Below, in pieces: positions 10,729 to 39,809 of a stretch of 64,000 nt of DNA. This DNA comes from Hoeflea marina (GTDB lineage Bacteria > Pseudomonadota > Alphaproteobacteria > Rhizobiales > Rhizobiaceae): NCBI RefSeq assembly GCF_003182275.1, contig NZ_QGTR01000003.1, forward strand, positions 124,001 to 188,000, given 5' to 3'. The translations under genes and the position numbers were made by a program. The notes below the pieces were generated by a model that ran no database searches, had not been told where the DNA came from, and saw only the letters and a program-made list of their open reading frames with translations. Every line of letters begins with the position of its first letter. Positions within the stretch are counted from its first letter, which is position 1.

Positions 10729-11274
10729 ATGCGCGGCCGCAAAAACAGACGACTTTGGTCCACCCCCAAATCCCGGCGCGGATTTGCCGTTCCGCTGCTG
10801 ACAGCCTTCCTGATGGCGGCGGCCTTCGCCGCGCCGTTCGTCGCCGACGCGGCGGGGCTGTTCAATTCACGGGCTGCGACAGCAGTCGACCCCTCTGACA
10901 CACTCGAACCGACGATCGCCGGACTCATCCACGGGCCGCTGCCGATCTGCGGAAGCGGACAGCGGATCACCTGCATCGTCGATGGCGACACGGGATGGCT
11001 GAATGGCGAGAAGTGGCGGCTCGCCGGAACCGACACCCCGGAGATCTCCTCCCCGGAATGCCAATCCGAATTGACGATCGGCATCCAGGCAAGGGACAGG
11101 CTCAGGGTCTTGATGACGGCCGGCTACCTGTTCGAACGCAACGGCACCGACCGCTATGGGCGGACGCTGGTCGAGATCAGGCTTGCCGACGGCCGCGATG
11201 TCGGCGACGTGCTCGAATCGGAAGGACTGTCCCAGGCCTGGCCCAACACGGGCAACCGCTGGTGTGGCCGATGA
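10729..11274 (+). CDS. Thermonuclease-family (SNase-like) secreted protein
   Basis: A 181-residue protein with an N-terminal hydrophobic export segment (VPLLTAFLMAAAFAAPFV) and a staphylococcal nuclease-like fold. Conserved elements are IVDGDTGWLNGEKWRLAG, DTPEI, and the catalytic region GTDRYGRTLVEI, followed by LSQAWPN. The family hydrolyses DNA or RNA with calcium; the periplasm or the outside is the likely place of action. It stands alone with no operon partner. No clear Shine-Dalgarno sequence is visible ahead of ATG 10729. Confidence 0.8.
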   Translation: MRGRKNRRLWSTPKSRRGFAVPLLTAFLMAAAFAAPFVADAAGLFNSRAATAVDPSDTLEPTIAGLIHGPLPICGSGQRITCIVDGDTGWLNGEKWRLAGTDTPEISSPECQSELTIGIQARDRLRVLMTAGYLFERNGTDRYGRTLVEIRLADGRDVGDVLESEGLSQAWPNTGNRWCGR

Positions 11275-34358: not shown

Positions 34359-34557
34359 ACCGGCGCGGACCTGCCTTCCGGCGCCCCCCGCAGGAACGCC
34401 GGCACTGTGCAATCGGACACAGCGCCGCGATGGAGATGCTTTACTGAGCAGCGAGATCAACTGCGGCACCGGCTGGCAAAGGTTCCATTTGCGCGCCGAG
34501 GTGCTATGAAAGGCAGACCGTATCCATGACTGCACACGCCATTCCGAGAATGCTGCC

Positions 34558-35868
34558 ATGAAACATCTTTTGGTCCCGCTGGTCTGGTCTGCGTCGTTGC
34601 TGACGGCTGTCTCTCCCTTGCCGGCGGCCGGGAGCGACATCGATACCGCATTCTCCGGCCGCTACCAGAACCCGGAGGATGTTTTCGCGCTCGGCGAATT
34701 CGTCCGCGCCGCCTCGGACACGGGCCAGTTCGACCAGGCGATCTCGACATTGGAAGAACACCTCATCCGCCACGCCGACGACGGGCGGGCACGGCTGGCG
34801 CTGGCGCGGCTCTATGCCAATGTCGGATCATGGGATCTGGCGGTCGAGCAAGTGACCGATGCCTTGGCAACCGGTCAGTTGAGCGGTGGCGAACAGATCG
34901 AGGCGAGCCGGCTGCAGCGCCGTGCATCCCGGGCCGCCAGCGGAGTCGAATGGTTTCTGGACGTCAGCGCAGGTGTGCGAGTCACTGATCTGGACGTGGA
35001 TGTGCCTTACTCGTCCTGGCATGACCGCACCGACACCGGCGGGTATGCCAAGGCCGACGGAGCGGTGCGGTTCGATCTTGGAACCGGGCTTGGCGATGCG
35101 CTGATCATTGCAGGCAGCGCAGAAGTGGACCGCCACTACGAAGACAACTTCCTAGGCGACGGCCCATCATTCGGCCTTTCCGATGGCGATCTCTTCAACG
35201 CCCGCCATGGACGTGTTTCACTGACCTACGACATGGGCTTGCCGGTGACCTCCATCGATGCTGCGAGACTGCAATTTGGCGGCTTCGCGGAGGTTCAGAC
35301 CTATCATCAGCAAATCCGTGAACAGGCATTGGGCGGATTGGCTCGACTCGTTCTTCTGCCAACGGTTGACACGCAAATTTATGGTGAGGTCAGTTATTCC
35401 GACTTGTCCCAATCGGAAGGTCTGTTGTCGCAATCGCGGCTCACCTGGGAGGCTGGCAGCAGTTGGCGCGTCGCCCAAAGCCATACGCTGGGTCTTCTTG
35501 GCCGCGGCCTGCGCGAAGAAGATGACAGCGGCGACGCTACGGCGGAGATGTCTGAAGTTGGCGTGTCTTACCTCGGCATATTGCCGTTTCGGCCTTTCAA
35601 CACGATCTGGACACACCAACTCACCGGAACGATCGGCACTTTTTCGAGCAAGAACTCCATAGAGTATGATGACATTAAGGTCTTCACGGGCAAGCACTGG
35701 CGGATTGAGTGGGCCAACCAGTTCCACATCGATGGCCAAAATCGGATCGACCTTTCCTATTCGGCTACCCGGCGCAATTTCGACCCGGCCGGAAACGTAC
35801 CTGAGATAATAGAGGGGCAGAGCTCGCTGACCCAGTCGGTGAGCCTTGGCTTCACCCACAGGTTCTAG
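34558..35868 (+). CDS. Outer-membrane beta-barrel protein with TPR-like N-terminus
   Basis: A 436-residue exported protein with signal peptide MKHLLVPLVWSASLLTAV, cut near AAG. Residues about 35-115 resemble tetratricopeptide helices (FDQAISTLEEHLIRHADDGRARLALARLYA, in part). From about 135 on the sequence alternates in beta-strand fashion (DVSAGVRVTDLDV, ARLQFGGFAEVQTY) and ends QSVSLGFTHRF with a terminal Phe, the outer-membrane barrel signal. It is followed after 7 bases by a FecR-domain gene and then a CHASE2 cyclase, so it may be the outer sensor or anchor of that unit. Exact family not recognised. Confidence 0.7.
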   Translation: MKHLLVPLVWSASLLTAVSPLPAAGSDIDTAFSGRYQNPEDVFALGEFVRAASDTGQFDQAISTLEEHLIRHADDGRARLALARLYANVGSWDLAVEQVTDALATGQLSGGEQIEASRLQRRASRAASGVEWFLDVSAGVRVTDLDVDVPYSSWHDRTDTGGYAKADGAVRFDLGTGLGDALIIAGSAEVDRHYEDNFLGDGPSFGLSDGDLFNARHGRVSLTYDMGLPVTSIDAARLQFGGFAEVQTYHQQIREQALGGLARLVLLPTVDTQIYGEVSYSDLSQSEGLLSQSRLTWEAGSSWRVAQSHTLGLLGRGLREEDDSGDATAEMSEVGVSYLGILPFRPFNTIWTHQLTGTIGTFSSKNSIEYDDIKVFTGKHWRIEWANQFHIDGQNRIDLSYSATRRNFDPAGNVPEIIEGQSSLTQSVSLGFTHRF

Positions 35869-35875
35869 GGAGACC

Positions 35876-36619
35876 ATGATGCAGTGCTCGATCAAGACTT
35901 TCCTTCTTCCGTTGGCCCTGATGGCATGGACCACCGGCACCGCAATGGCGGATTCGGTGGGCGAATTGACGGCGGTGCAGACCAATGTCGATCGCAACGG
36001 AACCGTGGCCCAGATCGGCAGCGGAATTTCGCTTGGCGACACACTGGTCAGTAACACCACCGGCTTGGGCATGATCGTGTTCATCGACCAGTCAAGCGCC
36101 AAGATCGGTCCGAATTCGCGTCTGGTGATCGACGACTTCGTCTATTCCGGCGGAACCGGCAAGAGTGCGGTGCGCATGGACCGCGGCGTAACCCGGTTTT
36201 ACGGCGGACGAATTTCCAAGAAGGGCGCAATGTCGATCACCACACCCAATGTGGTGCTCGCCGTACGTGGAGGCATCGTTGACGTATCGGTGGCCGGCGG
36301 CGTCAGCATCGCGACATTGCGCGCGGGCAAGCTCACCTGCACCGCCGGTGGCGTCACCAAGGTGATCACCAAACCGGGTATGGCCTGCACTTCCGATTCA
36401 AACGGGCTGCGGATCGGCAAAACCGGAGTCTTCAAGGTATTGAACCCGGCCATCGGCACCGGTGACAGCGACGGCATTGACAGCGCCGGGCTCTGCTCGG
36501 GAAAGGCTTCCTCGCGGCTGCCCTTCTGCCAGAGCCGCAATGGCCAGTTGCCCGGCTTTGGTAGCCAAGGGTCACGGACCATTCTGAGGATTCCACCGAT
36601 CCGAAAGGGCGATTATTGA
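35876..36619 (+). CDS. FecR-domain periplasmic protein
   Basis: A 247-residue exported protein. After the signal peptide (TFLLPLALMAWTTGTAMA) comes a FecR-like domain: VGELTAVQTNVDRNG, ISLGDTLVSN, GMIVFIDQSSAKIGPNSRLVID and ITTPNVVLAVRGGIVDVSVAGG. Two Cys pairs (TCTAGG, MACTSD; LCSGK, FCQSR) may form disulfides. Stand-alone FecR proteins of this kind occur beside CHASE2 cyclases. The start may be ATG 35876 or 35879; AGGGAG favours the second. Its TGA overlaps the TTG start of the cyclase gene. Confidence 0.82.
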   Translation: MMQCSIKTFLLPLALMAWTTGTAMADSVGELTAVQTNVDRNGTVAQIGSGISLGDTLVSNTTGLGMIVFIDQSSAKIGPNSRLVIDDFVYSGGTGKSAVRMDRGVTRFYGGRISKKGAMSITTPNVVLAVRGGIVDVSVAGGVSIATLRAGKLTCTAGGVTKVITKPGMACTSDSNGLRIGKTGVFKVLNPAIGTGDSDGIDSAGLCSGKASSRLPFCQSRNGQLPGFGSQGSRTILRIPPIRKGDY

Positions 36620-38484
36620 AATGGAAAAGGCCGCGGGCGCGCCTGCCCAGCGCGGGCATGGCCGTCGCTGCGCTGCTGATAACCTTTCATATCGGCTTAG
36701 ATCCGGTTCTCGACGGGCTGCGCGGTAAAACCTTCGATCTCTACCAGAATCTGGCACCTGAGCCTTCGACCACCGACGACATCGTACTCATCACCATTGA
36801 TGACGCGGCCCTGGCCCGCGAGGGCCGCTGGCCCTGGCCGCGCACAAGGATCGCCGAACTGATCGCATGCATCGGCGCCGCACACCCGTCCGCCTTCGGC
36901 ATCGATATCCTGTTTCCCGACGCCGGCGACGCGCTCGGCGACGCGGCGTTGGCATCGGCCATCGAAACGGTCAGACCGGTACTGGCAATGAGCACCAGCG
37001 AGGTATCCGGCGCACCCCTTCCCGAGCAGAAGGCCGGCTGGTCGGTCGTCGGCAATGGCAATGCCGGCACAATCCCGCATCTGCCCGGTCTGCTCGCCTC
37101 ACGCCCGGATTTCGCCAGCCAAGCCGGCGGCCTCGGACTGGTCCGTTCGGTCCCCGATCCGGACGGCGTGACCAGATCGATTCCGATGATCTGGGCCACC
37201 GGTACCGAAAGCGAACTGGAATTCTGGCCATCCATGGCGCTGGAACTGGCACGCATCCACATGGGCGAGCCCGACTATACGCTACGGCTGGGGCCGCAAG
37301 GCTATGATGCGCTCCGGCTTGGCAACCGCACCATCTCGTTGAGCAGTGGCGGCGCCGTCTGGCTCGCAGATTCCGCCAGCCCCATCGCGCGCGTGGGCGC
37401 GCTGGACCTGCTCGCAGGCACTGCCGCGCAAGCGTTGGCCGGCAAGATTGCCATCCTCTCGGTGACGGCGACCGGCTTCGACAGCTTCCACACCACGCCG
37501 CTGGTGGCGACGCGGCCGGGCGCGGAGATACACGCGCTGCTGACGGGCCAGATTCTGAGCGGCCGGTTTCCTGTCGAGCCCGCGAATGCCAAGCTCTATG
37601 AACGGCTGGCGTTCGCATTGCTGGCCCTGACGATGATCGCGGCGGTATCGCTGATGGCCGAAAGACGGCTGGCGCTGCTCGCAGCCTTTGTCCTGCTTGC
37701 CGGCACCCCGTTCGCCGTTGGCCTTGCCGCCTATGCGTGGCGCGGCGAACTTTATGACGGTTTGCAGCCATCGATCGGACTGGCGGCGCTGGCAGCGGCG
37801 CTGACTTATCTGCTCTACCGCCTGGCCGAGCGGCGACGGCAGCGCATCTCGGGTCAGTTCGCGCTCTATCTTTCACCCAAGGTGGTCGAGGCGCTGGTCC
37901 GGTCGGACACCGACGTTACCCGAACTGCCGAGCGCCGTTTGGTGACCGTGATGTTCATGGATCTGCGCGGCTTCACTGCGTCGAGCGAGACACTGCCGCC
38001 TGATCAGGTGGTCGGCACCGTCAACCGTTTCCTGACCATTGCCAGCGAAGAGATATTCCGAACCGACGGCACCATCGACAAATTCATGGGAGATGCGGTG
38101 ATGGCATTCTGGAATGCGCCGCTCGATCAACCGGATCATGCATCAAGAGCGATGCGGTCGGTGACGGCGATCGTAGATCGGCTGCGCGAGGAGAACATTG
38201 CCCGCAAATCGGCAGGCCTCGCGCAGATCCTGGTCGGAGCGGGGCTTGAAAGCGGCCCCTGCTCGGTGGGAAATTTCGGGTCCGACATCCGCTACAATTT
38301 CACTGTCATCGGCCAGGCCGCCAATCTGGCGGCGAGGCTGGAAAGCGCCACCAAGGGCACCGGCCATACCGTGCTGGCGGGGCCGGGTTTCGCCCGACAG
38401 GTTCCCGAACTGGTGGCGCCCGCGGGGCAGTTCACTCTGGCCGGATTCGCGCAATCCGTGGAAGCCTTCACGCTCAGGCACTGA
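36616..38484 (+). CDS. CHASE2-domain adenylate/guanylate cyclase
   Basis: A 622-residue sensor cyclase. One N-terminal helix (AVAALLITFHIGL) is followed by a periplasmic CHASE2 domain (about 35-320), three helices (about 335-415) and a cytoplasmic class-III cyclase. Catalytic residues are intact: metal ligands Asp449 (VMFMDLRGF) and Asp493 (KFMGDAVMAFW), Lys489, and transition-state residues Asn570 and Arg574 in AANLAAR. The Thr in NFTVIG suggests a class-IIIb adenylyl cyclase. TTG 36616 is the start, with AAAGGG six bases upstream and overlap with the FecR stop. It probably makes cAMP on a periplasmic cue. Confidence 0.87.
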   Translation: MKWKRPRARLPSAGMAVAALLITFHIGLDPVLDGLRGKTFDLYQNLAPEPSTTDDIVLITIDDAALAREGRWPWPRTRIAELIACIGAAHPSAFGIDILFPDAGDALGDAALASAIETVRPVLAMSTSEVSGAPLPEQKAGWSVVGNGNAGTIPHLPGLLASRPDFASQAGGLGLVRSVPDPDGVTRSIPMIWATGTESELEFWPSMALELARIHMGEPDYTLRLGPQGYDALRLGNRTISLSSGGAVWLADSASPIARVGALDLLAGTAAQALAGKIAILSVTATGFDSFHTTPLVATRPGAEIHALLTGQILSGRFPVEPANAKLYERLAFALLALTMIAAVSLMAERRLALLAAFVLLAGTPFAVGLAAYAWRGELYDGLQPSIGLAALAAALTYLLYRLAERRRQRISGQFALYLSPKVVEALVRSDTDVTRTAERRLVTVMFMDLRGFTASSETLPPDQVVGTVNRFLTIASEEIFRTDGTIDKFMGDAVMAFWNAPLDQPDHASRAMRSVTAIVDRLREENIARKSAGLAQILVGAGLESGPCSVGNFGSDIRYNFTVIGQAANLAARLESATKGTGHTVLAGPGFARQVPELVAPAGQFTLAGFAQSVEAFTLRH

Positions 38485-38611
38485 GAGCCCGCACGCCACA
38501 ACGCACCGATGTACTGGCAGCGCACTTCCGGCTGTGCCAAGATGGCTGCCTCATCGGCGGGCCATGGGGGACAGCCGTTGAGGAAAGATAGCGAGATTCG
38601 GGGAGACGACC

Positions 38612-39298
38612 GTGGACATGCTGAGCGACATTGCACTGTTTGAAGGAATGCCGCCCGACAAGTTGGCCGGTCTTGCCCGCCAGTGCAGCTGGGCAAATTA
38701 CTCCGAACACGAACTGGTGGTGGACTTCGCCGATGACAGCACCGATGTAAGGTTCATCATCAGCGGCGGCGTGAGGGTGATCTTCCGGGCGCCGAGCGGC
38801 AAGGAGATGATCCTGGGCGAGATCGGGGAAGGCCAGTTCTTCGGCGAACTGGCGGCCATCGACGGCCAGACCCGCTCGGCCAATGTGACCACGCTGAGCC
38901 GCAGCCGCATCTGCACCATGCCGGCAGGCGTGTTCCGAGCGCTGCTGGCGGCCCATCCCGACATTGCCCTGAAGGTCATGACGGTGCTGACCGGCCGGAT
39001 CCGCAGCCTGAACATGCGGCTTGCCGAGCATTCCTTTCTCGACGCCCGTTTCCGGCTCTACAACGAACTCATCCGCCTCTCGCGGCCGCGCAGCGGCAAG
39101 CCCGACCAGCGCATCATCAGTCCGCCTCCCAACCAGAGCGAACTTGCCGAGCGCATCGGCTGCCGCCGCGAGGTGGTGTCGCGGGAAATCGCGCGCCTCA
39201 AGGGCGACCAGGTCGTCGAGATCACCAAGGGAGGCCTGGTTCTGTCCCGGCCGGAAACCCTGTCGCACCTGCTGTCTGAGGCCTGGGCCGGCGGCTGA
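38612..39298 (+). CDS. Crp/Fnr family transcriptional regulator, probable cAMP binder
   Basis: A 228-residue regulator with an N-terminal cyclic-nucleotide domain and a C-terminal winged helix. The phosphate-binding cassette reads FFGELAAIDGQTRSANV with Glu79, Arg88 and Ser89, equivalent to the cAMP contacts of E. coli CRP. The recognition helix is in NQSELAERIGCRREVVSREI. There is no Fe-S cysteine set as in FNR. GTG 38612 is chosen because GGGGAG is six bases upstream. It lies 127 bases after the cyclase on the same strand, so it may be the receiver of its cAMP. Confidence 0.87.
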   Translation: MDMLSDIALFEGMPPDKLAGLARQCSWANYSEHELVVDFADDSTDVRFIISGGVRVIFRAPSGKEMILGEIGEGQFFGELAAIDGQTRSANVTTLSRSRICTMPAGVFRALLAAHPDIALKVMTVLTGRIRSLNMRLAEHSFLDARFRLYNELIRLSRPRSGKPDQRIISPPPNQSELAERIGCRREVVSREIARLKGDQVVEITKGGLVLSRPETLSHLLSEAWAGG

Positions 39299-39404
39299 AG
39301 CGCCCCCGCGCCGCGGTGTGCGAATGCGCACAGCCGACGCTGCGCCGATCTCCTAGGGTCATTTCAACGCCAGACGACTGGCGCAGATCAAAGGAGAGAC
39401 GATC

Positions 39405-39809
39405 ATGACCAAGCTTCGCACCACCATCCTCTTGAGCCTCGCCGCCTTCACCCTGGCGGGCACCATGCAGCCGTCCCAGGCCGGCAACGGCTGGGGCCCC
39501 GGCGACTTCAAGCCCGGCATCCACAAGCCCTTCAAGCCGGGCTTCAAGGCACCCGGTCCGAAAGGGCCCGGCCCGAAGAAGCCCCATCATCACCATGACA
39601 ACAACTTCGAGGGTGCAGCCCTCGGCCTTCTCGGCGGCATGATCATCGGCAGCGCGATCGCCAATGCGCAGCAGCAGCCGGTCTATGTCGACAGCGGCAA
39701 CGCCCATGTCGCCTGGTGCATCGACCGCTACCGGTCCTACGACATTCCCAGCGACACCTACATGTCGAACTCGGGGTACCGCAAATACTGCAATTCGCCC
39801 TACCGCTGA
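39405..39809 (+). CDS. BA14K-like secreted protein
   Basis: A 134-residue exported protein. Signal peptide MTKLRTTILLSLAAFTLAG with cleavage near SQA; then a Pro/Lys/Gly-rich, His-containing linker (about 25-65), a Gly-rich hydrophobic stretch (ALGLLGGMIIGSAIA), and the BA14K motif HVAWCIDRYRSYDIPSDTYMS with the final Cys in RKYCNSPYR. The Brucella BA14K family is described as lectin-like and immunogenic. GGAGAG precedes ATG. It follows the Crp-type gene and ends before a strong terminator. Confidence 0.85.
   Translation: MTKLRTTILLSLAAFTLAGTMQPSQAGNGWGPGDFKPGIHKPFKPGFKAPGPKGPGPKKPHHHHDNNFEGAALGLLGGMIIGSAIANAQQQPVYVDSGNAHVAWCIDRYRSYDIPSDTYMSNSGYRKYCNSPYR

Follow-up and report, generated by a model that had tools for sequence, protein, structure and literature searches.

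The 64,000-nucleotide stretch of Hoeflea marina DNA analyzed here (contig NZ_QGTR01000003.1, positions 124,001 to 188,000; hereafter the window) contains a block of five plus-strand genes, which encode a TPR/β-barrel protein, a FecR-domain protein, a CHASE2 nucleotide cyclase, a Crp-type regulator and a small secreted protein of the BA14K family (Table 1). The barrel and fecR genes are 7 bases apart, the cyclase start overlaps the fecR stop, and 127 bases separate the cyclase gene from crp. A preliminary description, made from the sequence alone, had placed the first four genes on this strand with these positions and spacings, and open reading frame (ORF) calls and Pfam agree with it. The Pfam scan covered six window proteins, namely those of the five block genes and of the flanking ppk2 gene, and found TPR_19 in the barrel protein (1.8e-5, barely over the family cut-off), the FecR domain in the FecR protein (1.1e-8), CHASE2 (2.4e-40) and Guanylate_cyc (4.5e-11) in the cyclase, and cNMP_binding (1.7e-17) and HTH_Crp_2 (9.1e-10) in Crp. 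A residue check recovered all the functional residues named in that description: D449, K489, D493, N570 and R574 of the cyclase, and E79, R88 and S89 of Crp. The earlier reading had missed BA14K as a member of the block, as well as the likely operator in front of it.

Table 1. Genes of the block and predicted regulatory sites, in window coordinates
Feature	Position	Strand	Remarks
TPR/barrel gene	34558..35868	+	436 aa; signal peptide (by eye), TPR helices, 14-strand barrel, C-terminal Phe; candidate outer-membrane sensor
FecR gene	35876..36619	+	ATG start, 247 aa; signal peptide (by eye)
CHASE2 class III (IIIb-type) nucleotide cyclase gene	36616..38484	+	TTG start, 622 aa; inner membrane
Crp-type regulator gene	38612..39298	+	GTG start, 228 aa
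BA14K-family small secreted protein gene	39405..39809	+	predicted output gene, fifth block member
Predicted Crp operator TGTGCGAATGCGCACA	39317..39332	.	palindrome; TGTG-N8-CACA also in L069, L070 and L071
Predicted -10 hexamer TAGGGT	39354..39359	+	exactly 21 bases past the operator; class II geometry
Weak candidate Crp site TGTGCAATCGGACACA	34406..34421	.	152 bases 5' of the barrel start codon

Scanning named genomes with an alignment of the barrel protein yielded 39 loci, among them loci of Hoeflea, Pseudohoeflea, Anderseniella, Mesorhizobium, Oricola, Ahrensia, Roseitalea and Oceaniradius. A fecR gene lies downstream of the barrel gene in 38 of these and the cyclase gene is present as well in 37; the exceptions are at contig ends, L096 stopping within the barrel gene and L076 stopping 558 bases past fecR. 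The association of the three genes exceeds chance, as the trio stays linked across genera. Leaving out antisense frames of these three genes, no other ORF family of at least 90 residues was common to all of seven lineages compared. The barrel partner, which the preliminary description had marked as an inference, is upheld by these counts and has a genetic precedent in the NsrA-CyaK system discussed below, and the comparison of neighborhoods that it had called for shows the triad order to be conserved over several genera. We are highly confident that barrel, FecR protein and cyclase work together. About 0.9 kb lies between fecR and the cyclase gene in L075, L092 and L095, and also in L035/L036; these belong to one lineage, and in L036, the one of them tested, an acyltransferase gene (PF01553) is inserted there (L036:10632-11408, minus strand).

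Approached from the cyclase side, the link to FecR reappears. Twenty stretches around CHASE2 cyclases (L033-L052), hand-picked from the match list, most from among the 30 best matches (not all of which were taken) and two from lower ranks, all contain a FecR-domain ORF 46-987 bases from the cyclase; the 20 stretches also served to build the FecR profile, and Pfam agreed for the four on which it was run (L046, L047, L050, L052). Two of these stretches have an unusual content. In L046 the neighbor of the CHASE2 cyclase is a 1239-residue frame (L046:10441-14157, minus strand) in which Pfam finds FecR along with cadherin-like, VWA and RTX repeats; it gives the impression of an adhesin-like surface protein linked to the cyclase via a FecR domain. 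L052 (7646-11199) has another Crp-type gene, with 25% identity and Thr-Thr at the positions of CAP 127/128, immediately 5' of the CHASE2 cyclase, and a convergent FecR gene beside that pair, which makes it a second, apparently independent grouping of receiver, cyclase and FecR protein.

The order ppk2-barrel-fecR-cyclase-crp-BA14K-acs is common to the window, L069 (Hoeflea sp. SAT27, identical with L034), L070 (Pseudohoeflea suaedae, identical with L033) and L071 (a metagenome-assembled genome (MAG) of the Hyphomicrobiales), so that crp and BA14K are part of the block in this clade. Identity between the window and these three loci is 74-76% for Crp, 61-62% for the cyclase, 55-58% for the FecR protein and 50-51% for the barrel protein. 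The 36 remaining barrel loci (some of them break off shortly past the cyclase) show no Crp homologue on the stretch; the dedicated receiver proposed in the preliminary description therefore holds for the lineage of the window and not elsewhere.

Among the 18 genomes of the genus, matches to Crp (E ≤ 1e-30), to the barrel (E ≤ 0.001) and to the full-length cyclase are confined to the window's own genome, and four others match the cyclase over its catalytic part only. Of the other 17 genomes, 16 provided a stretch flanking acs. In 15 of these stretches ppk2 adjoins acs, the 16th being broken by a contig end, and none of the five block genes matched in these 15 stretches. The ppk2 and acs matches are 174-294 bases apart in 13 stretches and about 1.3 kb apart in two (L142 and L146), where other sequence occupies the place that the block has in the window. 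Since the block is jointly absent from the 15 stretches, its five genes are gained or lost together.

Beyond the genus, we counted Crp homologues (E ≤ 1e-50) in 394 genomes of the family, divided by the presence of the triad barrel (E ≤ 1e-15). They occur in 18 of 19 genomes with the barrel and in 32 of 375 without it. Counted by genus, Crp is found in 5 of 6 barrel genera vs 8 of 103 others (Fisher p 6e-5, a value that ignores kinship above the genus). Of 23 whole-searched genomes of named barrel loci, 9 hold a Crp of at least 46% identity.

The palindrome TGTGCGAATGCGCACA between crp and BA14K is, by its sequence, likely a Crp operator. TGTG-N8-CACA is kept in L069, where the dyad is perfect, in L070 and in L071. 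In class II CRP promoters the operator is centred at -41.5, i.e. 21 bases from the -10 hexamer. All four clade loci have TGTG-N8-CACA followed by exactly 21 bases and TANNNT before BA14K, and the BA14K start codon lies 88-90 bases from the first base of the operator in each of them, although the bases in between mostly vary; the predicted BA14K promoter has class II CRP geometry. As far as the literature was searched, no published link of BA14K with CRP and cyclic AMP (cAMP) was found.

The spacing rule was formed on these four BA14K promoters and then tried on other material. We examined 18 crp homologues unlinked to the triad, a sample that excludes L117-L119 (Mesorhizobium, about 31-32% identity) and Crp matches without a retrieved locus. 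TGTG-N8-CACA occurs at 8 of these 18 loci (10 sites), against a mean of 0.8 loci and a maximum of 3 in 300 Markov shuffles, and all 10 palindromes have TANNNT exactly 21 bases to one side. The same spacing was found for none of 12 other palindromes from the window, triad and CHASE2 stretches; several of these 12 precede genes, and the comparison set therefore does not consist of clean blanks. The 279 kb of same-genus stretches contain no TGTG-N8-CACA palindrome. The ten sites at unlinked crp genes amount to about three mutually independent groups. In Oricola-type genomes one group precedes BA14K genes close to crp (with a Pfam BA14K match in the three tested) and another a conserved 106-residue protein; in Anderseniella-type genomes the sites precede an 84-88-residue protein divergent from crp.

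When up to one mismatch was allowed, the four clade genomes yielded 51 sites, 7 of them with the 21-base spacing, and any other spacing from 10 to 28 bases occurred at most 4 times. With the three rule-forming BA14K sites removed, the spacing is found in 4 of 48 (p about 1e-4, rising to 0.0016 when a tandem pair is treated as one site). These four sites precede the genes of two tandem small secreted Cys-containing proteins in the window genome, of a similar protein in L163 and of a 41-residue membrane miniprotein in the window genome, all kinds being assigned by eye. In L136, L165 and, by sequence, L137 the promoter of the orthologous miniprotein has the palindrome, with CATATA in the place of the hexamer. 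Compared with reversed controls, the genome-wide counts of the palindrome pattern by itself at up to one mismatch are 10 vs 5 (G013), 15 vs 11 (G116) and 15 vs 7 (G258). We consider it likely that Crp acts at the palindrome. The miniprotein itself (MLIA..ALTMSLALMAS...) is conserved behind a Crp-type palindrome in L156, L136, L165 and L137, and the next gene after it is glycine-zipper lipoprotein-like.

Palindromes with a different layout were also found. The site TGTGCAATCGGACACA upstream of the barrel gene has no TANNNT at the class II place and no counterpart in L069-L071, and a random stretch of 199 bases would hold TGTG-N8-CACA with a probability of about 0.0016. The search for an operator motif suggested in the preliminary description was thus positive for BA14K; a weak palindrome without class II spacing stands before the barrel gene in the window only, and there is none before crp. 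The palindromes L046:14217 and L051:11117 precede FecR genes beside CHASE2 cyclases without the exact spacing, in genomes (G144 and G135) that also hold a Crp of the window subfamily. Crp may also bind the sites at 34406, in L046 and in L051, which would then follow a different layout and possibly provide feedback. Two others, L102:4776 and L105:4812, precede a small secreted-protein ORF (start at +71/72), likewise without the exact spacing. The CHASE2 cyclase and FecR genes of L051 diverge, with the palindrome (11117-11132) between them, and the unlinked Crp of that genome has 59% identity.

Structurally, the barrel protein was modeled with AlphaFold2 from an alignment of eight homologues (predicted local distance difference test (pLDDT) 78.9, predicted TM-score (pTM) 0.64). 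The model consists of a TPR helix stack and 14 strands. In a fold search, residues ~123-436 overlay CymA and OmpG with best Z-scores of 22-23, and the matches listed include OmpG, CymA, FadL and BcsC. The modeled architecture makes the protein a candidate outer-membrane sensor.

The FecR protein aligns with 16 homologues at 39-54% identity and gave a model of middling confidence (pLDDT 64.5). No hydrophobic segment was scored in it by a crude 19-residue scan, which missed the signal peptide too. By eye it has no lipobox, and Pfam found no surface-protein domain in it; from its sequence it is probably soluble in the periplasm. Four cysteines (C155, C171, C207 and C218 in the window protein) are invariant in 17 of 17 aligned triad FecR proteins, and disulphides between them could matter for the relay.

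The third protein, with CHASE2, Guanylate_cyc and the catalytic D, D, K, N and R all in place, belongs to the CHASE2 class III nucleotide cyclases, and its cyclase domain can be aligned to adenylate cyclases of solved structure (for example CyaB, 3r5g, at E 4e-26). Besides the catalytic residues it carries T563, as seen in the residue check. K489 and T563 occupy the two positions by which class IIIb enzymes select their base, and the pair fits class IIIb adenylate cyclases, which would make cAMP the product. It is the single Guanylate_cyc match across the whole 5.26-Mb genome in a search restricted to this family of cyclases.

Crp keeps the phosphate cassette (G-E...R-S) and the equivalents of CAP R180, E181 and R185 in its recognition helix. 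With cNMP_binding, HTH_Crp_2, the cassette and the recognition RE...R, it falls within the cyclic-nucleotide receptors of the Crp/Fnr family in the broad sense; it does not belong to the CRP equivalog (NCBIfam PRK11753), for which it scores 82.9 bits vs a curated cut-off of 266.

The closest known counterpart of the block is the NsrA-CyaK-Clr system of the alfalfa nodule bacterium Sinorhizobium meliloti, which functions in the autoregulation of infection. NsrA is described (PMC7529298, PMC13001267) as an outer-membrane receptor needed for plant-signal activity via CHASE2 cyclases and Clr; the first of these also gives it as necessary for signal activity through CyaK and its residues 600-1200 as a barrel. 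By Pfam, we located a FecR domain at residues 66-160 of NsrA and TPR stretches between 378 and 587, and the cyaK start falls on the last base of the annotated nsrA gene. Like the window, the system has FecR, TPR and barrel directly 5' of a CHASE2 cyclase and a Crp-type receiver in the pathway. Since all these parts, from FecR to the CHASE2 cyclase, are found in both, they are the same parts, fused in NsrA and split in the window: NsrA is one chain of 1200 residues, whereas the window distributes its parts over two genes, with a barrel that is 14-stranded in the model. On this comparison, the window triad looks like a split version of an NsrA-CyaK-type receptor. Against the profile of window-type barrels, NsrA scores 4.1 bits, spread over three fragments (the E value of 0.002 comes from a two-sequence search and is not meaningful), and the sensing barrels themselves may therefore be unrelated. 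A further difference is that the window has crp and the output gene in the same block. The FecR proteins of about 1000-1240 residues in L046, L047 and L050 had been considered as NsrA-like FecR-barrel fusions, an idea that we dropped after Pfam found the FecR domain alone in L047 and L050 and the repeats mentioned above in L046.

Three other systems share parts of the design. The Campylobacterota CHASE2 adenylate cyclase cluster has, like the window, a cyclase with a FecR-domain protein and a TPR protein; the available part of its description (PMC9239204) calls the FecR-domain protein an outer-membrane protein, includes a cAMP phosphodiesterase, and mentions no adjacent Crp, BA14K or operator. 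The Burkholderia BiofilmReg operon also has a periplasmic FecR-domain protein beside a CHASE2 sensor, but its output is a histidine kinase with a response regulator, and no barrel gene appears in the operon in the part of PMC5192318 available. FecA-FecR-FecI cell-surface signaling combines an outer-membrane barrel with a periplasmic FecR domain, as the window does; the window FecR protein, however, seems to have no membrane segment beyond its signal peptide, and the window barrel is small. Signaling of the Fec sigma/anti-sigma type was considered and rejected, as none of the six scanned proteins is a sigma factor and the FecR protein had no scored membrane segment.

We propose that the block encodes a trans-envelope circuit of five genes, running from barrel to FecR protein, cyclase, cAMP and Crp to the BA14K promoter, and put the probability of this reading at roughly 0.7. 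The TPR/14-strand barrel in the outer membrane would sense a condition outside the cell or in the outer membrane itself, and the soluble periplasmic FecR protein, contacting both barrel and CHASE2 domain, would pass the state of the former to the latter. The class IIIb cyclase in the inner membrane would alter its cAMP output in response. Crp would bind the nucleotide, occupy the TGTG-N8-CACA palindrome centred near -41.5 and, as a class II activator rather than a repressor, turn on BA14K; it would probably also activate a few other genes for small envelope proteins.

Several observations weigh against this circuit. CAP Thr127 and Ser128 correspond to L133 and N134 in the window Crp, Leu-Asn is found in all 21 aligned relatives of at least 46% identity as well, and Clr, which according to PMC10127613 answers both cAMP and cGMP (cyclic GMP), differs in having Thr-Thr there (140TT); the adenine-contact pair of Clr and CAP (TT or TS) is absent from the window protein. 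Because Leu-Asn replaces Thr127-Ser128, the sequence does not settle the ligand of Crp, which we think is probably the product of the cyclase. The preliminary description would have taken a crp gene present without the cyclase in most relatives as evidence against the unit, and the result cuts both ways: 32 of the 50 Crp-bearing genomes of the family are without the triad barrel, and in the same sample Crp is present in 18 of 19 genomes that have it. All 13 Mesorhizobium triad genomes searched and one Rhodobiaceae MAG have no Crp homologue or only a relative of 32% identity. At the level of the operator, 10 of the 18 unlinked crp loci have no perfect palindrome, and a search of these ten allowing one mismatch gave one match in 36.8 kb; the pattern count in the window genome (up to one mismatch) is 11 vs 11 in the reversed control; and neither the barrel gene nor crp has a class II arrangement upstream. 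Several palindromes without the spacing also precede genes, so the spacing rule does not explain everything.

One alternative is that the triad and the Crp/BA14K pair are two independent modules that happen to be adjacent in the clade, the triad sending cAMP to other receptors and Crp having another ligand or none. The replaced adenine contacts, the many Crp genomes without the barrel and the lack of a linked Crp, or of any, in most triad genomes speak for such an arrangement. Against it stand the coincidence of Crp, barrel and full-length cyclase in the same one of 18 genus genomes, the joint absence of the five genes from 15 same-genus stretches, the family-wide co-occurrence with its genus-level significance, and the finding that the window cyclase is the sole class III cyclase found in the genome, so that we regard two modules as unlikely. 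Less probable still is a barrel that serves as a transporter or as a Slam-like translocon, exporting or surface-exposing the FecR protein or BA14K, with the cyclase sensing the envelope state only. Slam proteins have a TPR part and 14 strands, a layout that the window barrel matches, and the large L046 FecR protein beside a CHASE2 cyclase is surface-like, with its cadherin-like, VWA and RTX parts. However, the barrel has no SlipAM (PF04575) match in Pfam at E ≤ 0.1, a scan that a remote relative could escape, and no recognized Slam entry is among its fold matches listed; the FecR protein has a signal peptide but neither lipobox nor surface-protein domain; and the fusion of FecR and TPR to the barrel of NsrA fits a receptor. 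That the palindrome is the terminator hairpin of crp and not an operator seems very improbable: it starts 18 bases past the stop codon of crp, and a stem of 6 bp is conceivable, but no T run follows it, L071 breaks the inner stem pairs yet retains TGTG and CACA, the 21-base distance to TANNNT is fixed, and similar sites precede unrelated genes.

The five-gene circuit may also exemplify a wider principle. Because FecR proteins accompany CHASE2 in both the Burkholderia kinase and the Campylobacterota cyclases, we take contact between FecR and CHASE2 to be the general step. We tentatively suggest, at somewhat less than even odds, that CHASE2 generally docks FecR proteins, variously fused to or partnered with outer-membrane or surface parts, and not small molecules, and that CHASE2 cyclases and kinases in general receive their periplasmic input from FecR proteins; the window block would then be a complete private circuit, with a split receptor, a Crp with an altered (Leu-Asn) pocket and a target promoter.

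To our knowledge, it has yet to be explained how an outer-membrane signal reaches an adenylate cyclase of the inner membrane, even in NsrA-CyaK, the best case. We regard the block as a real, conserved and largely self-contained trans-envelope signaling unit, which shares its design with NsrA-CyaK-Clr but has split parts and a receiver, a predicted operator and an output gene of its own. As its proteins are small and separate, receiver and predicted promoter are adjacent, and the genome yielded no second class III cyclase, the steps lend themselves to testing one at a time. How NsrA is built, from FecR, TPR and barrel, also emerges from the comparison, and the operator rule yields a first candidate regulon, comprising BA14K and other small envelope proteins.

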